Below, one piece after another: positions 7,042 to 32,772 of a DNA stretch of 32,772 nucleotides. Position 1 is the first letter of the stretch; each line of letters opens with the position of its first letter. Below the pieces are notes generated by a model. It was not told where the DNA came from. It worked only from the letters and a program-made list of their open reading frames with translations, and did not search any database. A program made the position numbers and the translations under genes. Origin of the DNA: a virus; IMG/VR virus record IMGVR_UViG_3300017991_000281, positions 1 to 32,772 of that record; one strand, written 5' to 3'.

Positions 7042-7848
7042 ATGAAACGCATATACATACTTTTCGCTGTTGGCATTGTGTTGATAGCCTTCGCTTGCTA
7101 CGGGTTTATGTTTGTGGGCGGGAAACCACCGGCACCAGCGGGTGATACCTACGAATACATCACTATGTTTCTCACCTTTGAGCAAAACGATAATGATGGC
7201 GACTATGACATAGACGGTGATCCCGACTGTTCAAGCGGGGATACCTCGGGGGCATACGCCGGCGCTGCGGAAGTAAACGGTGACCAGAAACAGGTTGGCA
7301 CTTATGCCCTTGATTGCCCTACTGCTGCTGATTATATGGAATTTACCACTGATGCTAATACCATTGCCCCTGGTAGCTCTGGTCGTGTTGGATTTTACCA
7401 TCATCTTAATGCTGAGGTTGCTAATACGCTTGGAGTGTTAAAAATTGAGGATGATGGGGACAATTATTTACAGATACGAATAACAGATGACGGAACGAAC
7501 TATGAATATACACTCTTTTCAAAAATTGGCGGCGACGCCATCGCTAATGTAAGCACAAATAGCAATTTTACAGAGGGAACATGGTATTGGGTCGAACTTA
7601 ACTGGTACAGTACCACCACTACAATAACGCTGGAAATTTTTGATACGTCTGGAAATTCTATTGAATCTATCAACGATACTGCTGGTTTTACTGGCTTTAC
7701 AACAGCTACCATTCAGCTAGGGGAATTCTTTTCCCAGCCAGCAGATCACTCGTTTGACAATGTAATCTTTGCTGATAGCTATGAACACGCTCTAGTCAGC
7801 TTACGAGATAATACAACGTGCCAGGATTTAAGCGGATGTTGTCCATGA
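7042..7848 (+). CDS. LamG/concanavalin-like exported protein
   Basis: The start at 7042 is preferred over 7018 because AAGGA is correctly placed and the upstream gene ends at 7040. Residues 1-19 are a hydrophobic signal ending AFAC, which could be a non-standard lipobox. The mature part has the strand pattern and motifs of a laminin-G/concanavalin-A-like fold (VGFYHHLNAEVANTLGVLKI, NYLQIRITDDGTNYEYTLF, TEGTWYWVELNWYS, HSFDNVIFADSYE). Such domains bind sugars or other ligands. Cysteines near residues 62 and 92 and at the C-terminus may form disulphides. Probably a surface or tail-associated lectin. Confidence 0.65.
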   Translation: MKRIYILFAVGIVLIAFACYGFMFVGGKPPAPAGDTYEYITMFLTFEQNDNDGDYDIDGDPDCSSGDTSGAYAGAAEVNGDQKQVGTYALDCPTAADYMEFTTDANTIAPGSSGRVGFYHHLNAEVANTLGVLKIEDDGDNYLQIRITDDGTNYEYTLFSKIGGDAIANVSTNSNFTEGTWYWVELNWYSTTTTITLEIFDTSGNSIESINDTAGFTGFTTATIQLGEFFSQPADHSFDNVIFADSYEHALVSLRDNTTCQDLSGCCP

Positions 7849-8942
7849 TCAAGAAAATAATATTTGGTTTTATTGTCTTGTTTTGGCCGATAGCGGCCAT
7901 TGCTGCCCCCTCCATAACTGACATCACATGGTCGGGGTCATTGGCCGATGAAACCGTTATAACCATAACCGGCAGCAGTTTTGGGTCAAAAACAAATGCC
8001 AAACCTGTGGCATGGGCGGATTTTGAGGGGGGTTCGATTGCCTTTGATACCAGTCTTTGTGTAACCGAAACTTCAATAGTAAACAATTCCAGCAGAGTAT
8101 CCATTCATAGCACCGAAGGAGATCAACCGCACACAGATTCAAACTATTGTGGAAGATCACCGGATTTCTCAGGGCTTGGCGGGTCTTATATAGTAACTAT
8201 CGGTTTGGATGATTCTAATTACGCAAACGATCATTGGTATGTATTCTGTAGAAGGTACTATGATTCTGGTTTGTTTGATAATAATAACAGTACAAACGTG
8301 AAACTCGATGGTCGGTTTATGACCAGTGATGAAAAATCACAAACCTATATTATTCTTTGGTCAACCGATACCAACCAACTAAGAAATGGGGAAGCCAGTT
8401 GCACAGCCAATGATAGTATGACTTATCAGGTATATGACTATCTTAGCGAGTGGTTTACTGTTGAATGGGAAATGGATCAAGGAGACGCTGGTTCTTCAAA
8501 TGGCGTTTACCATAATTGGATAAATGGTAGTGCCGTTTCTCAAGAACTTACCGACATGGCTGGAAGGTGCACTGGTGAGGGAACATGGTGTCATTTGAAT
8601 ATGCAGGTATATTTTTGTGATGGTGATGATTTGCCTAGTAGTACGAAATACGCCTATTGGGATGATTTTTACGTGGACAACACATGGTCCCGCGTCATGG
8701 TAGGCGATAACGCAACCTATGAATCTTGCACATGGCGACACCCTGTTATTCCGACAGCGTGGGCCGATGGAGAGATTACGGCAGAATTTAAGCGGGGAGG
8801 GCAAACAGGAACCGCCTATATCTTTGTGGTTGATTCAAGCGGAGATGCTTCGACAGGAGAAGAAATAACGATCGGGGGGACGGGCAATGGCACACCACAA
8901 ATCACCGGCATAACCATTGTGGAAGTCCCCTTCGATTTTTAG
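7845..8942 (+). CDS. IPT/TIG plus jelly-roll exported protein
   Basis: The ATG at 7845 overlaps the previous stop (ATGA) and gives a classical signal peptide ending AIAA; ATGs at 7836 and 7818 would only extend it. Mature residues about 22-60 (PSITDITWSGSLADETVITI, TGSSFGSK) match an IPT/TIG Ig-like domain. A long concanavalin-like region follows with WYVFCRRYYDSG, WFTVEWEMDQG and YAYWDDFYVDNTW. A final Ig-like strand set ends in AYIFVVDSSGDAS. This order resembles carbohydrate-binding surface proteins. No catalytic residues are apparent. Co-located export signals suggest it works with its neighbours outside the cell. Confidence 0.65.
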   Translation: MIKKIIFGFIVLFWPIAAIAAPSITDITWSGSLADETVITITGSSFGSKTNAKPVAWADFEGGSIAFDTSLCVTETSIVNNSSRVSIHSTEGDQPHTDSNYCGRSPDFSGLGGSYIVTIGLDDSNYANDHWYVFCRRYYDSGLFDNNNSTNVKLDGRFMTSDEKSQTYIILWSTDTNQLRNGEASCTANDSMTYQVYDYLSEWFTVEWEMDQGDAGSSNGVYHNWINGSAVSQELTDMAGRCTGEGTWCHLNMQVYFCDGDDLPSSTKYAYWDDFYVDNTWSRVMVGDNATYESCTWRHPVIPTAWADGEITAEFKRGGQTGTAYIFVVDSSGDASTGEEITIGGTGNGTPQITGITIVEVPFDF

Positions 8943-9600: not shown

Positions 9601-9613
9601 TCGGGGGTTGCGT

Positions 9614-10318
9614 ATGATTGTTTCTGATGAGGTCGTAAAAAAGAATCGGGAAGCACTTACACCGATAGCTGAGGCTGCGGTTATCCCCTTTCATTGGCTT
9701 TATCAGGTAAACAAGGACAGAACGTGGGAAAATACGTTCTGGTTTGGCGTTCCCATCAACCAATGTCCGTTAGATGCTTGGGTATTTCAAGAGATTATAT
9801 GGAATACAAGGCCAAACATAATTATTGAAACCGGCACTCGGTATGGTGGTGGAGCTTTTTATTACGCAAGCATATTTGATTTGTTGTGGCTTTATTTTCA
9901 ACATGAAGGAACTGTTATAACCATTGATACGGATGAGAAATACAAATGTGTTTCTCATCCCCGGATGTCCTTTTTGCACGGTTCTTCTACTGATGAGCAG
10001 ATAGTTCAGAAAGTTGGTGAAGCAATAAGGGCAAAAGACAGAGTAATGGTTGTCTTGGATTCTCTTCACACAAAAAGCCACATTGCACAAGAACTGGAAA
10101 TTTATTCCAGGCTGGTTACAAAGGATTGCTATTTGATTGTTTGTGATACGAATATTGGCGGTAATCCCATGTATCTTCCCGATGGAACCGATGTGCCTGC
10201 ACCCATCGAGGCCGTAAATGAATTCCTTGCAAATAACAGTTCCTTTGTGGTCGATGAAAGGCAAGAAAAGCATTATCTTACTTTTAACCCCGGCGGTTAC
10301 TTAAAGAGGATTTTATGA
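9614..10318 (+). CDS. Cephalosporin hydroxylase (CmcI)-like methyltransferase-fold enzyme
   Basis: The ATG at 9614 sits six bases after GGGGG and is preferred over an in-frame TTG at 9608. The 234-residue protein matches the CmcI family throughout: IIETGTRYGGGAFYYA (SAM-binding loop), TIDTDEKY, HPRMSFLHGSSTDEQIV, VMVVLDSLHTKSHIAQELEI, LIVCDTNIGG and LTFNPGGYL. Members have a SAM-dependent methyltransferase fold. In polysaccharide and antibiotic clusters they methylate or otherwise modify sugars or small molecules. Here it is followed by a methyltransferase and a glycosyltransferase, so modification of a phage- or host-surface glycan is likely. The substrate cannot be inferred. Confidence 0.8.
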   Translation: MIVSDEVVKKNREALTPIAEAAVIPFHWLYQVNKDRTWENTFWFGVPINQCPLDAWVFQEIIWNTRPNIIIETGTRYGGGAFYYASIFDLLWLYFQHEGTVITIDTDEKYKCVSHPRMSFLHGSSTDEQIVQKVGEAIRAKDRVMVVLDSLHTKSHIAQELEIYSRLVTKDCYLIVCDTNIGGNPMYLPDGTDVPAPIEAVNEFLANNSSFVVDERQEKHYLTFNPGGYLKRIL

Positions 10319-10851
10319 CTGATTGTCTATGCCATATTTTACCCCGTGAATTATGTCCTGTTCACGGGCGGGATGAGTTTATATCGAAACATGGTGGAAT
10401 CCGGCTCGATATAGGTTGCGGCAACGATAAGCAAAAAGGTTTTGTCGGCCTTGATAAAAGACCGCTACCCGAAGTTGAGATCGTTCATGATCTTGAGATA
10501 TTTCCCTATCCTTTGCCGGATGAGTGCTGTTTGATAATTGTGGGTTCCCATATCATCGAACATATTAAACCCTGGCTTACCATTGATTTGTTTGATGAGC
10601 TATGGCGGATAATGCAACCCGGAGGGGAATTGCTTCTTGCTACGCCGTATGCCGGTTCTCGCCCGTTCTGGCAAGACCCAACACACTGCAACGGTTTTAG
10701 TGAAACTACCTTTCAATATTTCGATTCAAAATCACCGCTTTATGGGATTTATAAACCGAAACCCTGGAATATACGTGCGGGATTTCCCGTTTGGCAGGCG
10801 AATGGAAACCTTGAAATTATAATGGAGAAAGCAGCGGAAGAAGATGAATAA
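10315..10851 (+). CDS. Class I SAM-dependent methyltransferase
   Basis: This 178-residue protein has motif I LDIGCG (residues 32-37), an acidic residue at the end of the second strand (GLDKRPL) and the motif-IV-like IVGSHIIEHI. WRIMQPGGELLLATPYAGSR follows. This is the small Methyltransf_11-type layout often placed with glycosyltransferases. A Cys/His cluster at the N-terminus (CLCHILPRELCPVHG) could bind a metal. The start overlaps the CmcI-like gene by four bases. Likely acts on sugar or protein. Confidence 0.75.
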   Translation: MTDCLCHILPRELCPVHGRDEFISKHGGIRLDIGCGNDKQKGFVGLDKRPLPEVEIVHDLEIFPYPLPDECCLIIVGSHIIEHIKPWLTIDLFDELWRIMQPGGELLLATPYAGSRPFWQDPTHCNGFSETTFQYFDSKSPLYGIYKPKPWNIRAGFPVWQANGNLEIIMEKAAEEDE

Positions 10852-11725
10852 AAGAATAGAGGGGCAGCCCTTAATCGAGGGTTATTCGAGCGAATTACAC
10901 AAGGCACTTTCCGGTATGTCAAAGCGTGTTATGGTTGGTATTCCCATGACAGGGCTTTTGCGGTCTGAATGGGTGATTGCACGGTATAGTCAGACTATTC
11001 CTTGCAATTGGGCACAGACCGACTGTTATCACTGGCTCAATCAATACAGTCCATTGAATTTTCTTGTTGCCGATGCCAGAAACATTATTGTTTCCAAGTG
11101 CATAGAAAATGGCTTTGAGTGGCTTTTCTTCATAGACCATGATGTAATTATACCACCGGATACGGTTCTCAGGATGAACGAGCGAATGCTTAAAGAGAAT
11201 GTTCCTGTGTGGTCCGGGCTCTATTTTACCAAATCAGTTCCAAGTGAACCGCTTGTCTACCGGGGCAGGGGAAACAGCTATTACAACAAATGGAAGATAG
11301 GTGATGAGGTTTGGGTTGATGGTCTCCCGATGGGAGTTACCATGATCCATTCTTCAATTTTAAAGGCCATGTATGATGAAAGCGAAACATACATTCTGAG
11401 GGATGCCGGGGGGGTCGAAGTTAATGCACGGCGGGTTTTCGATACTCCGGCAAAGGTTTGGTATGACCCTGAACACCACAATTGGTTTACTGAAGTGGGC
11501 ACCGAAGATTTAAACTGGTGCAGAAAGGTGATTGAGGGTAACTTTTTCAAAAAGGCCGGATGGCCCCAATATCAGAGGAAAAAATATCCCTTTCTGGTAG
11601 ATACAAAGATTTATTGCCGCCATATTGATTTTGACGGTATTCAATATCCGCACAAGGGCGAAGAAGCGGAGTTTATGGATCTAAAGAGTGAAGAAGCAAA
11701 GTTTGTGGGTCTAAATGGGCGTTAG
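10844..11725 (+). CDS. Glycosyltransferase, GT-A type
   Basis: This 293-residue protein shows a GT-A layout: strand VMVGIPMTG (residues 29-37), NFLVADARNIIVSKCIENGF, then WLFFIDHDVIIPPD with a DxD-like DHD at residues 98-100 for metal and nucleotide-sugar binding. Later motifs include VWSGLYFTK, GLPMGVTMIHSSIL and TEDLNWCRKV, with a late His (YCRHIDF). It belongs to the set of phage glycosyltransferases that accompany virion genes. A G7 run at 11410-11416 lies inside the gene. It overlaps both neighbours, so the CmcI-like enzyme, methyltransferase and glycosyltransferase form a unit. Confidence 0.7.
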   Translation: MNKRIEGQPLIEGYSSELHKALSGMSKRVMVGIPMTGLLRSEWVIARYSQTIPCNWAQTDCYHWLNQYSPLNFLVADARNIIVSKCIENGFEWLFFIDHDVIIPPDTVLRMNERMLKENVPVWSGLYFTKSVPSEPLVYRGRGNSYYNKWKIGDEVWVDGLPMGVTMIHSSILKAMYDESETYILRDAGGVEVNARRVFDTPAKVWYDPEHHNWFTEVGTEDLNWCRKVIEGNFFKKAGWPQYQRKKYPFLVDTKIYCRHIDFDGIQYPHKGEEAEFMDLKSEEAKFVGLNGR

Positions 11726-16490: not shown

Positions 16491-18413
16491 ATGAACAAGC
16501 AAAATAAAAATCCTGAAACCCCCGACGAAGTTACGTTTCTTTCTCCCGAAGAAAAGCTCTGCAACTTGGTTTTGGACGAGTGGGAACAGGGCCAGCAATA
16601 CGTCAGCGAGTTAAACCATCTTTACGATGATATTTACTCAATGATTCGCGGGGAAAGGCCGGAGAAGAACTACGATTGGCAGTCCAACGTGGTTATCAAC
16701 AAGGTGTTTCAGGTGGTCTGGACAGCCATACCGTATATCACACAGAAGATATTCGGCGGCTCACCTGTTATCGGCGTGCGGTCTTTTAACACCAAGGGTG
16801 CATGGCAGAGGGAGCAGATACTTGAGTTCTGGCACACCATGCAGGCCACGGCTGACAAGGAGCACATAACGTATTTCCTGATTGTGGTCATGTGGCTGCT
16901 GCGGGCGCTCTTGAACGGCGTGGGTATTCTCAAAAAAGGCTGGCACCAGAAACTTACCACCAAAACCATTGAGTTCGATGTGCCGACTGAACTCGGCGAA
17001 AACGGGGAAACCCTGAAAAGCGAAACGCACTCCAAGACCTACAAGATTCCCGTTGAGGACTGGCCCCACAACAGGATCGTGAATAACCGCGACATAGTGG
17101 TGGATTGGCTGCTCCAACCCGGCCAGAGTATCAGAAGCGGCAGGTTTATCATCGAGCGCAATATATTGGACCTGGATTACCTGCATTCATCCGACATCAA
17201 TTACAAGAACCTTGACCAGCTAGAGGTCACATCTACGGGTGTCAATACAACCACAACAGAGGGCCACAGTGAGGCGAGAAGCAAGGATGGTCTTGACACC
17301 CCCCCTGAATCGGACGTTTACGCCGAGATAGAAGTATTTGAAAGAATCGGCAAGCTCCCTGTTTACAAGGAAAAACAGGATGGTGAATGGGTTGTGTGTA
17401 TGGAAAAGGAAAACCTCGACAGCGACGATGTGGTGACAAAAGAGATGGTTGTCACGGTTGCCAAGTGCCAAAAGAAAAAGGTGCTTATTCGCTGCGAGCC
17501 GAATACCTACGGGCTTAAAAACTACATCGACATGCACATCTATTTCGATGAGGAACGCTGGCAATCAATGGGCATGGTGGAACCGGTCAAGGATGCCCAA
17601 ACTGCACTAAACGATAACATTAATGCAGCTTTTGACAAAATATGGCAAGAACTCATGCCGCCCGTAATCGTCAACAAGTTCGCCCTGTGGGATTGGGATA
17701 CCATGCAGTATGCCCCGCAGCAGCGGTGGCTTGTGGGAGGGAACCCGGCAGATGCGGCATACTTCAGGGAACCGTCCCGTGTTACCCCCGATACATGGCA
17801 AAAGCATGTTTTATTCGACAACGAAATCCAGCTTACCACGGCCATTACTCCGCCAATGCAGGGGGGCGGCAAGGAGAAAGCGGCGACAACCAATGTGCTG
17901 AATGCACAAATGGCTGCCGGTAGGCTGGATTTTATCGTGAAGATGATAGAGCAGACCGCCCTTATTCCCTCCGCCCAGATGGATGTGATGTTCGCCAAGA
18001 AGTTCGCCCATCCCATGACCTTGAGATCCATCCTGGGAGAACCGTTTGAATACGGCGAATGGGAAGAGGTCTACAAGTATATACCTGCTGCATCGAGCGT
18101 GAAACTTGAGCAGCAGAAAGAAATAGAGATTCAGCAGGACTTGCAATTGATTCAAATAATCGGCTCGATCCCAAATCCGCAAACACCAAAGCTGCTGAAC
18201 ATATTCCTGCAAAATATCCTCAGAAACAGGGATATGCCGAAAGAGGCACAACTGTTCGATGAGGATTATTTCGAGCCGTCAAGCGAAGCAGGGAACTTAC
18301 AAATGATGCAGCGCACACTTGGACCGGGAACACCGTCAAACCAGAATCAGGTTCCCATGAGTGCTAATGAACGCAGTACACGGCAACTAACGTATGAGTC
18401 GAGAGGGGGATAA
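16491..18413 (+). CDS. Portal protein
   Basis: This 640-residue protein follows the terminase without a gap. The N-terminal helices (YDDIYSMIRGERPEKNYDWQ then SNVVINKVFQVVWTAIPYIT) and the middle segment (NDNINAAFDKIWQELMPPVI) match the wing and stem regions of large podovirus portals. A GGGGKEKAATTNVLNAQMAA-like segment lies in the C-terminal half (residues about 460-480). Twelve copies should form the ring at the capsid vertex for DNA entry and tail attachment. CAGGGAGATAA precedes the ATG. The family call rests on position, size and these segments. Confidence 0.85.
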   Translation: MNKQNKNPETPDEVTFLSPEEKLCNLVLDEWEQGQQYVSELNHLYDDIYSMIRGERPEKNYDWQSNVVINKVFQVVWTAIPYITQKIFGGSPVIGVRSFNTKGAWQREQILEFWHTMQATADKEHITYFLIVVMWLLRALLNGVGILKKGWHQKLTTKTIEFDVPTELGENGETLKSETHSKTYKIPVEDWPHNRIVNNRDIVVDWLLQPGQSIRSGRFIIERNILDLDYLHSSDINYKNLDQLEVTSTGVNTTTTEGHSEARSKDGLDTPPESDVYAEIEVFERIGKLPVYKEKQDGEWVVCMEKENLDSDDVVTKEMVVTVAKCQKKKVLIRCEPNTYGLKNYIDMHIYFDEERWQSMGMVEPVKDAQTALNDNINAAFDKIWQELMPPVIVNKFALWDWDTMQYAPQQRWLVGGNPADAAYFREPSRVTPDTWQKHVLFDNEIQLTTAITPPMQGGGKEKAATTNVLNAQMAAGRLDFIVKMIEQTALIPSAQMDVMFAKKFAHPMTLRSILGEPFEYGEWEEVYKYIPAASSVKLEQQKEIEIQQDLQLIQIIGSIPNPQTPKLLNIFLQNILRNRDMPKEAQLFDEDYFEPSSEAGNLQMMQRTLGPGTPSNQNQVPMSANERSTRQLTYESRGG

Positions 18414-27108: not shown

Positions 27109-27983
27109 GCACAACCACTATCCAACAAAACATCATTTATGGCATCGGTGAGGGTGCCCTCGTAGCCGACACCACAATGCTCGCCTATGCGCTCCGCTGG
27201 GCTAACTCGGCATACCGTGAGGTGTTTGGCCGCTATCGGTTTCAATCCATAAAAACCCGTTCGATTGCCGCGGCTACCGATGGACAGCAAACCTATCAGG
27301 CCCCCTCTGATTTCTTCGGGTTTCTCACCCTGAAAGACGAGACCAACGAAACTATCATAGCCCAGGAGACGGCAGAGGAATTTCAGCGCAATGTCGGCAC
27401 CAGCGAGATCGAAGATGAAACCTTTACGTCCAGTTCCGATACGGCTGTTTCGCTGGATAACAAGGCCATAGTCCAATACAGCGAAAGAATCTGTGATGAT
27501 GCCGATGAAACTACGACTTACACGCGGGATACCGATTACACCATGAACTACGTCGCCGGAACGGTTACGGTTGATTCCACGGGTTCCATGTCGGATGCTA
27601 CGGAGTATTATGCCAACTACCTGTATTACTCAAAGAACACCCCGGATCACTTCTGCCTTGAATATGATGCCGCAAGCAATCGGTATTTCTTTCGCTTGCG
27701 TCCCGTACCTGACGACGATTATGTATTAAGCCTTCTTTATCCCGCCGTGCCCTCAGACCTTTCCGGCTCGGTTGCCCCCATCTGGTCGGAAATGGAATTC
27801 TGTATAGAGCGCGGCGGGATTTATTACGGAGCGCTTGAGCTGCGGGAACCGAATGACCCAAGTATAGAAAGGTTCAAACGGGATTATGAAGCCGCTATTC
27901 AGGCATTGATTCAATTAGACCAGGACCTGCAACCAAAACATAGCCGCATGAAGGTAGTTATGCGATCAGTGGATTATAATTAA
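27105..27983 (+). CDS. Head-to-tail adaptor protein
   Basis: The frame starts with GTG at 27105, overlapping the previous stop, with AAGGAA upstream. It encodes 292 residues. N-terminal helices (LAYALRWANSAYREVFGRYR) are followed by SIAAATDGQQTYQAPSDFFG, the pattern of adaptor (gatekeeper) proteins that bind the portal ring of short-tailed phages. The C-terminal helix (SIERFKRDYEAAIQALIQLD) fits the same family. It should connect portal and tail hub. Confidence 0.7.
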   Translation: MSTTTIQQNIIYGIGEGALVADTTMLAYALRWANSAYREVFGRYRFQSIKTRSIAAATDGQQTYQAPSDFFGFLTLKDETNETIIAQETAEEFQRNVGTSEIEDETFTSSSDTAVSLDNKAIVQYSERICDDADETTTYTRDTDYTMNYVAGTVTVDSTGSMSDATEYYANYLYYSKNTPDHFCLEYDAASNRYFFRLRPVPDDDYVLSLLYPAVPSDLSGSVAPIWSEMEFCIERGGIYYGALELREPNDPSIERFKRDYEAAIQALIQLDQDLQPKHSRMKVVMRSVDYN

Positions 27984-29506
27984 TGCCCAGTAGAACCATA
28001 GGATATTGTTATCATGGTGTTGATTATTCGACACCGCCCCACAATCTGAACCTTACAACTTTGGCAGATGCCAGAAATATCGTGCCAAGTCCTGCCGGGT
28101 TGCCTATGGGGAGAAGCGGGAGCGTTAAGCTGAACAGCACGGCTGTCGGTTCGGGGGCGCGGGTAACGTCCGTCCATGAATTCAGAAGCGGAACTACCCG
28201 GACAACCCTTTGTTCATACAGCACCAAGGTTGCCAGTTATAGCTCTGCTACAGGTGAATTTTCCGATCAGATAACCGGACTTACCGATGATAAAATGTTT
28301 CAGTGGGTTAATTTCGGGGGCAAGGCAATAGGGGTAAACGAAGGTTCCGATACTGCTCAATATTACAATGCTTCCGGTAGCGGCGATTTATGCGCCTCTG
28401 CGCCGAGCGGTCTGTGCGTAGCTGAATGGGCAAACCGGGTGTGGTTTATGGATGGCGCCACGCTCAAAGGTTCGCACCTTAACGATGAGGATGGGGATTA
28501 CACGGATACGGGGAGTGCAACCAACGCAGTAAGTCAGGTGGTTGGAGACAGCGGGGATAATGGAATCGGCCTTATCGGGTTTTTTGATATGCTGCTTATC
28601 GGCAAAACAAATCAGATTTTCAAACTCACGGGTGCCCCTGCAACGGACGGTGAAACCTTGAGCATTGAACCGCTGGTTGACAAAAGCGCCGACAATATCG
28701 GCTTTACATCTCCCTGGGCCGTAACACAGGTCGGCAATGATCTCATTTTTTTGGATGGCTACGACATTAAACGCCTTTCCGGTATTACAGAATATGGGGA
28801 TGTAGAAACCGTTTCCATTATTCCGCATTTCAGAGATTTTTTGAAAGATACGGCTGACCAGGATTACCTCAAGTACACACAGTTTTTCCACTACAAGCAG
28901 GGGCAACAGATATGGGTATCGGTTCCCACAGGGGCGAGTACCCATTATGTGTTTGTTTTGGATTACAGATTCAAAAGCAAAACCGGCATCTATTCAGTCT
29001 ATCCCATGTATAATCTTAATGTGGTTTGTTTTGGGGGTGCGGAAGATGGGCAGGTGGTTGACCTGTATTTCGGGGATGAGTCGGGGTTTGCCCGGCAACT
29101 CGATTACGGAGATAATGACGATGGGAGCGCGATAGACCGTTATTTTGTCAATGTTATATCAGGCAACGAGCAGGGACAGAACGGATACACATACCGGAAA
29201 CACTTTCAGGGCTGTGATACGTACATAGAGCCTACGGCCTCTGCATTGAGCATGACCCCCTACTACGCTACCGACCTCATGGATGATTCGGATATACGAA
29301 CATCCGCCAACTATACGTCGCTTGGTGCGGAGACTGTAACCGGTTGGGGGGGCACGGGGGTATATCACCGAAAGACACCGAGGTTTTTCGGCATTTCGGG
29401 CAAGACCCTTGCCTTGAAATGGCAGCACAATACCGTAGCACAGAATTTTACGTTTTTTCCAAGCACCGTTCACTATGATTGGGGGGCGAGGATGGATATA
29501 GAATAG
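27983..29506 (+). CDS. Tail hub / DNA-stabilisation-like protein
   Basis: This 507-residue protein is beta-rich with repeated blade-like strands (MFQWVNFGGKAIGVNEGSD, CVAEWANRVWFMDGATLKG, LIGFFDMLLIGKTNQIFKLT, FTSPWAVTQVGNDLIFLDGY). Its N-terminus has LADARNIVPSPAGLPMGRSG, the R-N-x-x-P-x-x-G-x-x-x-R-x-G motif of podovirus tail-nozzle and packaged-DNA-stabilisation proteins. It should plug or extend the portal channel. It overlaps the adaptor gene by one base. Strong architecture match; exact subfamily not known. Confidence 0.7.
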   Translation: MPSRTIGYCYHGVDYSTPPHNLNLTTLADARNIVPSPAGLPMGRSGSVKLNSTAVGSGARVTSVHEFRSGTTRTTLCSYSTKVASYSSATGEFSDQITGLTDDKMFQWVNFGGKAIGVNEGSDTAQYYNASGSGDLCASAPSGLCVAEWANRVWFMDGATLKGSHLNDEDGDYTDTGSATNAVSQVVGDSGDNGIGLIGFFDMLLIGKTNQIFKLTGAPATDGETLSIEPLVDKSADNIGFTSPWAVTQVGNDLIFLDGYDIKRLSGITEYGDVETVSIIPHFRDFLKDTADQDYLKYTQFFHYKQGQQIWVSVPTGASTHYVFVLDYRFKSKTGIYSVYPMYNLNVVCFGGAEDGQVVDLYFGDESGFARQLDYGDNDDGSAIDRYFVNVISGNEQGQNGYTYRKHFQGCDTYIEPTASALSMTPYYATDLMDDSDIRTSANYTSLGAETVTGWGGTGVYHRKTPRFFGISGKTLALKWQHNTVAQNFTFFPSTVHYDWGARMDIE

Positions 29507-29515
29507 GAGATTAAC

Positions 29516-30439
29516 ATGGGATTATTTGATTTTGTGGGTGATATTTTAGGCGTAGACCAGCCAAGTCCTGTCCAATACAGCACACCGCAGCCCTCAGAAA
29601 CCGAAACTGAAATCCAGCAAGAAATACTTGAGATACTTCAGGAAGGCAGAGAGCCGAGCGAGAATGAACTGCTCATGCAGGATTACACCAAGCAACTGCT
29701 TGAGAACCAGCTTGCCAATATGCCGATGGAGCAGGAATACCGCGAGGCTACCATCGAGCTTATGAATGAACAGCTTGCCTATACCAGACAGCAGTTACAG
29801 AATTTGGCGGATGCGAAAGAGCTTGGTGAGATTACGGGCGATCTAACCGCAGAAGAACGCAGCCTGTTTGATGAACTTGAAGCCAATGCCCTTGCTACCC
29901 TGGAAACCAGCGTCAATAAACAACTTGAAGATGTGATGGGCAAGGAGATTGCCAGCCTTGTCAGCAGGGGAGTTTTACAGGGCGGCATTGGTGCTGAGAC
30001 CATGAGCAGGCTTGGTGAAAAGGCAACGGAGATTATTGCTCAGGGTACTGCCGATATAGCATCTACCAAAATGCAGGGCATGTTGGGTACCATTGAGGCC
30101 AACAAGCAAAGGGATTTACAGCTTAAAGCCCTGGTGCAAAGCGGCCAGTTGAGCAGAGAACAGGCAGCCCAGGCCATGACACAATCGGCATTTGGCATGG
30201 CAAATGTGGGCACTCAGATGGCACAACAAGCCACACAATGGGGAGCGGGATTAAACCAGGCGTGGAAGGGCCAGCAATTAAGCGGGCTTCAGGGCATGTA
30301 TGGTTCGTTGGCAGGGCAGCGTATGGGTACAGCCCAAAACGCTTTACAGGCAGCAATAGCGCAATCTCAGGCCCAGGCATCAGAGTCCGCAAGCAAGTGG
30401 GGGGCTCTTGGTAATGTTTTTGGCGGATTATTTGGATAA
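29516..30439 (+). CDS. Internal virion / ejection-like protein A
   Basis: This 307-residue protein has an N-terminal hydrophobic motif (MGLFDFVGDILG), a long Gln/Glu/Leu-rich coiled coil, then Ala/Gln/Gly/Met-rich helices (AGLNQAWKGQQLSGLQGMYG) ending GNVFGGLFG. Such Ala/Gln-rich, low-complexity helical proteins after the tail hub gene are typical of podovirus proteins that are packaged and injected with the DNA. TAGGAGATTAAC precedes the ATG. Confidence 0.6.
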   Translation: MGLFDFVGDILGVDQPSPVQYSTPQPSETETEIQQEILEILQEGREPSENELLMQDYTKQLLENQLANMPMEQEYREATIELMNEQLAYTRQQLQNLADAKELGEITGDLTAEERSLFDELEANALATLETSVNKQLEDVMGKEIASLVSRGVLQGGIGAETMSRLGEKATEIIAQGTADIASTKMQGMLGTIEANKQRDLQLKALVQSGQLSREQAAQAMTQSAFGMANVGTQMAQQATQWGAGLNQAWKGQQLSGLQGMYGSLAGQRMGTAQNALQAAIAQSQAQASESASKWGALGNVFGGLFG

Positions 30440-30451
30440 GGAGTAATAACT

Positions 30452-31540
30452 ATGGGATGGCCGGTACACTCTTACGGAACCGAACAATTTTTTAATTGGC
30501 GGCGCTATAAGCAAGGAATACGGCGAGAAGATCAAGAACGGACACGGCAAGAACAAGCGCAATTAGAACAGCGTATGCGGGAAGTTAAACAAAATGCAGA
30601 AGACCGCAAATATAAACAATTTGATATGGTAAATAAGGCCGTTGATACCTACCGCAAACTATATGATTCTGATTTTAGTCCCTCAGAACTACGCAGTTTC
30701 CGTGGTATAATGCAGAACCAATTAAAGGCTGTTGGTGTAGATATTGACCTAACAAACATATCAAAACCAGAAGATGTGAAGGACGAATGGGGTAAGGTAG
30801 GGGTAAAGCAATTTATCAATGCGTTTGAGTATTACAAGGAGCACCCCTATGAGCCAGAATCCGCTAATGCAGTTATGCGCGGCCTTGGGTGGTTAAAGGC
30901 CAACAACAAGCAATTTGATGTTACTCCGTATCAGAATGAGTTTCAAAGGATACAAACACAACAAGCGCAAGAAGCCAAAGCTAAAACAGAAAAACAACCA
31001 TCCCAGCTTGAAGCAGGAAAGGCGGCGGGCCAATTACGGAAAGAATTTGAAGCACAGGAACCAGTTAAACAGTTTCGGGAAATTAGCTTTAGATACGATG
31101 TAATGCAAGAGGCCATGCGGGAAGCCACGACGACAAAGAATTTTGTGGCAGTAGATCAAGCTATTATTACTACATTCAATAAAATGACCGACCCCGATTC
31201 CGTTGTAAGAGAAAGTGAGTATATCAGAACATCTAGTGACTTATCATTGTGGAATCGGTTAAAGGGTAAAATAGAACGGTTTAAAGCCGGTGGTCCTGGA
31301 TTAACCTCACAAGACAGGGAAGCCTTATTTCGTATGGCTAAGAAATTCATGGCTGCGGCCCAACGCCGATATAATATTGAAAAAATGCGCTATGAAGGGT
31401 TTTTCAAGCAATCCGGGCTATCACCCGCAAAACATTTTTATCCCCAAGCAACACGACCACCAACCACACGCAAAAATGTTTCTGACATGACAGATGAAGA
31501 ACTCTTACAAGAATTGATGAAACTTAGGGGACAGCAATAA
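30452..31540 (+). CDS. Internal virion / ejection-like protein B
   Basis: This 362-residue protein has a basic coiled-coil N-terminus (residues about 15-60). A central helical region follows, then a conserved-looking C-terminal segment (FVAVDQAIITTFNKMTDPDS, VVRESEY, ALFRMAKKFMAAAQRR). The K-x-x-DP-x-S-VVRE-x-E motif is characteristic of phage internal virion proteins. It probably enters the host with the genome. AAGGAGTAATAACT precedes the ATG, and the stop overlaps the next start. Confidence 0.65.
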   Translation: MGWPVHSYGTEQFFNWRRYKQGIRREDQERTRQEQAQLEQRMREVKQNAEDRKYKQFDMVNKAVDTYRKLYDSDFSPSELRSFRGIMQNQLKAVGVDIDLTNISKPEDVKDEWGKVGVKQFINAFEYYKEHPYEPESANAVMRGLGWLKANNKQFDVTPYQNEFQRIQTQQAQEAKAKTEKQPSQLEAGKAAGQLRKEFEAQEPVKQFREISFRYDVMQEAMREATTTKNFVAVDQAIITTFNKMTDPDSVVRESEYIRTSSDLSLWNRLKGKIERFKAGGPGLTSQDREALFRMAKKFMAAAQRRYNIEKMRYEGFFKQSGLSPAKHFYPQATRPPTTRKNVSDMTDEELLQELMKLRGQQ

Positions 31541-32721
31541 TGCCAGAAATAAGTCCTGAAGAAGCTCAATCTCGCTTCTATTATCAACAGATTCTCGATG
31601 AAATGAGGCGACGAAGAATTGATATTTCGCCCAAAATGACTGACGTATCGGGCAAGAATATTACTGATGAACTAATCCGAAGAGGGTACAGTCCGGTAGA
31701 CATTCAAGAACAGATGAACCAATACGTTACCCAGGAAACAACCAAATGGGAACACTTTAAAGAAGAATTACCCGAATTGGCTGGTGGGGCGGTTTATGGT
31801 GCAAGATTTGGTGCAGCATTTGGGTGGCCTGGAGCATTAGGCGGAGCATTTGTAGGAGGTATAACAGGCAAAGCATTTCAGCAAGTTCATCAAGCATTAA
31901 CGGGTTCCGTGAAAGCGCCTAAGACATCGGCAGAAGCCGCCGAAGAAATGGCCAAATCGGGATTTCGGGAGGCAGCTTATGAGGCCGGTGGGCGAGTTGC
32001 CATGAAGGGAGCAATTAAGGCAACTGCTCCCATATTTCGGAAATTGAAGCCAGAGATTTTGCCCTTCGCCAGAGAAGGTCAAAAAGAAATGGTTAAATAT
32101 GGCAGTCATTTAACGCCCGCGCAAATGACTGAAAGCGGTTTGATAGATACATTAGAAGAAATCGCCGAACGGGGCTTTATAAGTCGTGGTACCATGCAGA
32201 AATTTAAAGGCCGAATACAGCAGGAAGCATTAGGTAAATGGACAAAAGATTTGGCTGATAGTTTTGCAGAGAGTGTAACCGAAAGACTCTCTCCCGAAGA
32301 AATAGGTATTGTGTTCAGGGATATTTTTGCAGGTGAAAATGAAACCTTTAAGGCTGTTGGTAGAACACTGTATGGCAAAGTAGATGAATTAACAGGCAAC
32401 AATCCAATCGTAGATTTGCGACCTATCAAAACATTTGCTCAAGAAGTTTATAATATCGCCAAAGAGCGTCATGGAATTGGCGATACTCATGCTGGCATGA
32501 AAATGCTTAAAAATGTTTTGAAATTTAGCGATAATATCACATTCAAACAAGCACAAAGCATTAGAAGCGGGTTTGGTGATGAAATCTATAATATGCCGAA
32601 TACCGGCCAGAGGCTTCCCAGAATCACAAATAATCCTGCCAGCGCCAGCGCCATCCCGACATACATCGGATTGCGGCTGTATTTGAAAGATCCCTCTATG
32701 ATAAGTACGCTTGATTCTTGA
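31540..32721 (+). pseudogene. Ejection-like protein C, 3' end replaced at a junction
   Basis: The frame encodes 393 residues. A Gly/Ala-rich hydrophobic stretch (about residues 79-112) with GGAVYGARFGAAFGWPGALG could insert in a membrane, as in pore-forming ejection proteins. Helical segments follow, including SPEEIGIVFRDIFAGENETF and TFKQAQSIRSGFGDEI. After about residue 351 the phage-like sequence ends. The remaining 42 or so residues are read from DNA whose opposite strand encodes a methyltransferase-like membrane protein. The gene therefore lacks its true C-terminus, and the stop at 32719-32721 is probably accidental. Confidence 0.65.
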
Positions 32722-32772
32722 AAGGGCTTAATTGTGGTCTCGCGTTTATCAAACAAATTCGAGGCCCAGATA
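32586..32772 (-). pseudogene. Isoprenylcysteine methyltransferase-like fragment
   Basis: Read leftward from the window edge, one open frame gives about 61 residues. It includes FDKRETTIKPFQESSVLIIE, GSFKYSRNPMYVGMALALAG and LFVILGSLWPVFGIL before a stop at 32586-32588. The T-x-[IV]-x-P then G-x-[FP]-x-x-x-RNPMY-x-G signature followed by a membrane helix is diagnostic of the isoprenylcysteine carboxyl methyltransferase/phospholipid methyltransferase family. The 5' end runs out of the window. The 3' end is cut off before the usual C-terminal EE and FG-x-x-Y segments. It looks like host-type DNA joined to the phage gene. Confidence 0.75.

Follow-up and report, generated by a model that had tools for sequence, protein, structure and literature searches.

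Metagenome assembly is documented to yield chimeric contigs (PMC7299287), and chimeras formed during multiple displacement amplification (MDA), a step that the sample behind the record described here may not have undergone, are mostly inverted and intramolecular (PMC1855051). In assemblies of metagenomic or amplified DNA, a chimeric contig end brings together two unrelated broken coding sequences close to the end of the contig, one of them in inverted orientation. The window analysed in this study is the entire linear IMG/VR record IMGVR_UViG_3300017991_000281 (32,772 bases), in which such a join lies about 180 bases from the right-hand end. We found no evident difference between this join and the chimeric contig ends of metagenome or amplified-DNA assemblies, and its cause may lie in the library, in amplification or in the assembler.

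Two kinds of protein-coding gene meet at the join. The sequence at the tip shares with the PEMT/ICMT-type methyltransferases (PF04191, PF04140; phrog_26245) the common core region around RNPMYVGM, at about 40-60% identity to bacterial members, but consists of 61 residues only and lacks both the N-terminal part and the C-terminal region with its EE pair and VRRW end. The gene on the other side resembles the large ejection or internal virion proteins of the uncultured phages G001, G002, G003, G012, G017 and G018 in its position in the gene order, in a closely spaced or overlapping start and in a weak similarity at residues 319-351, whereas the copy in the window is cut at about 351 codons as against 463-1853 in those phages. 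We conclude that the right-hand contig tip is most likely an artefactual chimera, arising from a chimeric read or an assembly tip, and not a product of biology. The main value of the finding so read is one of data hygiene. The features that bear on this conclusion are listed in Table 1.

Table 1. Positions of the features around the join and in the upstream syntenic block
Feature	Position	Strand	Basis
Conserved tail-region gene, 507 aa, synteny anchor	27983..29506	+	Relatives at 53-62% identity in 14 contigs, some of these incomplete
Second gene of the block (g307)	29516..30439	+	41-47% identity to the counterpart in L100, L105 and L106
Third gene of the block (g362), DNA-transfer-protein-like	30452..31540	+	phrog_13634, E 3e-12
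First ~351 codons (5' part) of the gene for a large virion protein, probably of the ejection type, cut at the join	31540..32592	+	ORF; gene order; weak alignment
Join interval	32589..32603	.	Methyltransferase similarity to residues 57-61 and phage alignment to codon 351
Internal 61-codon piece of a membrane methyltransferase of bacterial type, PEMT/ICMT family	32589..32771	-	PF04191, E 4.5e-7; 80 genome loci; alignment with 60 homologues
Spurious C-terminal tail of the phage ORF, on the strand opposite the methyltransferase	32593..32721	+	Chance ORF run-on; opposite strand coding by homology

A bacterial-type methyltransferase fragment at the contig tip

The minus-strand frame from 32771 to 32586 runs in from the contig end without a stop and encodes 61 aa (IWASNLFDKRETTIKPFQESSVLIIEGSFKYSRNPMYVGMALALAGLFVILGSLWPVFGIL), including the RNPMYVGM motif, before a TAG at 32588-32586. 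This fragment matched the PF04191 (PEMT) profile with 30.7 bits, above the curated cut-off of 25, and spanned profile positions 27-76 of 105, a part of the domain. It also matched phrog_26245 (E 2.5e-12) and, weakly, both the ICMT family PF04140 (0.009) and DUF1295, while a PDB search with the 61 aa returned no match. Given the matches to PF04191 and phrog_26245 and the weak one to PF04140, the methyltransferase signal is not due to chance. The minus-strand signature of the isoprenylcysteine methyltransferase type that a preliminary description had noticed is thus real, and the protein family search that it had proposed yielded PF04191 and, weakly, PF04140, with the similarity stopping at the join.

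A scan of bacterial and archaeal genomes revealed 199 relatives of the fragment from many phyla, 80 of which (80 genome loci) were kept, and 60 homologues were aligned with the fragment. Full-length relatives were mostly about 145-190 aa long. The best relatives over the fragment, found in Zixiibacteriota and Bacteroidetes metagenome-assembled genomes, were only ~56% identical, too distant for any of them to be taken as the donor genome. Every one of the 60 homologues was longer than the fragment on the C-terminal side by 36-41 residues, which include a conserved EE pair and an end of the form FG..Y..Y...VRRW, and had 47-104 residues before the first residue of the fragment, the latter range being an overestimate from stop-to-stop frames. 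In the longest matches the similarity extended to residue 61, and the stop of the fragment (32586-32588) fell outside the family alignment and sits in phage DNA. Judged by these alignments, the methyltransferase gene is broken at its 3' end by the join and at its 5' end by the end of the record.

The many relatives of the fragment in bacterial genomes had no counterpart among the viral contigs and phage records searched with the 61-aa query, and the phage GenBank records gave neither a DNA nor a protein match to the join region. A PEMT search likewise gave no match in 18 viral records related to the window, among which are contigs with lengths of 48.8 and 49.3 kb. The same search did recover the window's own fragment and was positive in 9 of the 14 control genomes.

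A phage gene cut at the same point

On the plus strand, the ORF starting at 31540 nominally runs to 32721 and encodes 393 aa, the last 42 codons of which are antisense to the methyltransferase. It is the fourth gene of a block that is conserved in uncultured viral contigs, in which relatives of the 507-aa gene and of the portal protein (16491-18413) were found with 53-71% identity. The relatives of the 507-aa gene were retrieved only with an alignment of that gene; single-sequence pattern scans with the truncated phage protein, g362, the 507-aa gene and g307 detected no close relatives. The third gene, g362, also showed a weak match to the 'DNA transfer protein' of Salmonella phage SEN22 and Escherichia coli phage Kapi1.

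In every relative with enough sequence, one or two short genes take the place of g307 after the 507-aa gene, and a gene of the size of g362 and then a long ORF in the same orientation come next. This long ORF, the fourth gene, is complete in six distinct relatives, where it encodes 463, 809, 810, 1340, 1644 and 1853 aa, and the gene after it is in each case on the same strand and starts with MALTK, MAFTK, MSLTK or a similar sequence. With its ~351 codons, the fourth gene of the window has neither the length of an intact copy nor its downstream neighbour. The large virion ORFs after the g362-like gene (L106:8743-14304, L107:13763-18697, L111:13847-17869, L113:14125-16554, L114:8777-10168 and L117:14495-16927) could hardly be aligned with one another, even among relatives whose tail gene is 53-62% identical; ranging from 463 to 1853 aa, they appear to represent an unusually fast-changing gene, probably for an ejection protein.

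The 351-aa protein lacks a confident homologue. A search of the related contigs with it produced no match, and its pairwise comparison with the large ORFs of the relatives gave no significance against shuffled sequences. As the fast divergence of this gene would account for the lack of matches, gene order was used in place of similarity. The last 33 residues of the phage part (...ITFKQAQSIRSGFGDEIYN; residues 319-351) aligned to residues 384-417 (LTPQDLQGIRQELGSELRN) of the 809-aa relative with an hhalign E of 0.02 and a probability of 2.3%. That relative has nearly 400 residues more beyond the aligned stretch, and the alignment is suggestive, but only suggestive, of a continuation past the join. 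From the gene order, the length and this one weak 33-residue alignment, the phage gene should be longer than ~351 codons. The plus-strand phage gene that had been described as extending up to ~32585 is confirmed and reads as phage to about codon 351 (32592); its 'ejection' label is probable, drawn as it is from gene order and weak similarity with no family match.

Position and origin of the join

The similarity of the methyltransferase to residues 57-61 (32603-32589) and that of the phage protein to codon 351 (32592) together place the join within about 32589-32603, which confirms a join here but puts it slightly further right than the 32585-32590 first proposed. By codon preference, a weak measure in short 90-base windows, the phage-like signal of the plus frame fades across the join and the methyltransferase frame turns from negative to positive. 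A 22-base stretch from the phage side of the join was absent from all other viral contigs scanned, a set from which very close records were possibly left out, and the join itself was absent from the related genomes, the available ones being distant relatives, and from other assemblies. On the evidence of the sequence comparisons, the phage gene and the methyltransferase share one break point, and the syntenic relatives lack the methyltransferase. The preliminary description had both genes truncated at one place, which the 60 methyltransferase homologues and the six syntenic relatives bear out, except that the methyltransferase loses its 5' end to the boundary of the record and not to the join.

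That description had left the choice between a recombination scar and an assembly or amplification chimera. The present analysis supports the reading as a chimeric junction and, of the two origins, prefers the artefact, which is favoured by the position at the tip, ~180 bases from the end, by the absence from all relatives and by the lack of a second copy. A read, or an assembly path derived from one, would have connected phage DNA, midway through a large virion gene, with ~180 bases from an unrelated bacterium, and these bases hold an oppositely oriented internal part of a membrane methyltransferase of the PEMT/ICMT type. We infer that the joining most likely took place in the tube or in the assembler and not in the cell.

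A genuine recombination, or a degraded prophage adjoining host genes, would give an end of this kind and in a single sequence would look no different, and the fragment is indeed of a bacterial and not of a phage type. We nevertheless consider it rather unlikely that the genome of a phage or prophage remnant broke within the virion gene and was linked in vivo to the host chromosome, with the disrupted methyltransferase alongside and the contig end representing host DNA. The join interrupts a structural gene and is only ~180 bases away from the contig end, the methyltransferase gene would need to have been destroyed at the very same point, and neither a tRNA nor terminal repeats were found in the window, nor any Rfam match suggesting an integration site.

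Much less probable is a rearranged phage genome, in which the phage would carry a PEMT auxiliary gene elsewhere and an intramolecular inversion would have brought it to the join. The match of the fragment to phrog_26245 implies that some phage or prophage proteins of the PEMT kind exist, and the mostly inverted, intramolecular nature of MDA chimeras (PMC1855051) would fit such an event, but no relative, including the contigs of 48.8 and 49.3 kb, contained a PEMT match. A natural gene end, at which the phage protein would stop at about 32592 or 32721 and be followed by an intact gene on the other strand, is scarcely credible in spite of the plus ORF being open to 32721, and was rejected on the length and synteny of the relatives on both sides, as the methyltransferase homologues all run past the join and the syntenic phage genes are 463-1853 aa long, each with a same-strand gene after it.

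Consequences for annotation and other genes of the phage

With the tip read as an artefactual chimera, about 32589-32772 should be trimmed from the record, and the annotation of the gene at 31540 should change from a 393-aa protein to 3'-partial. The last ~180 bases should neither be counted as a phage auxiliary methyltransferase nor serve for host assignment. Because the two longest relatives reach 15 kb or more beyond the syntenic block, the record is probably incomplete, with part of the phage genome missing.

Elsewhere in the window, a gene of the CmcI/rhamnosyl O-methyltransferase family was found at 9608-10318 (PF04989, 6e-53), followed by a second methyltransferase-like gene with a weak match below the cut-off (Methyltransf_23, 0.002) and by a gene at 10844-11725 with a weak match to the Anp1 glycosyltransferases. 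The region from 9608 to 11725, which is located after the small terminase gene (3679) and before the portal gene (16491), may thus be a sugar-modification cassette. A TIG/IPT-domain-like protein (E 0.001, just below the cut-off) is encoded at 7818-8942 and is perhaps a surface or decoration protein.
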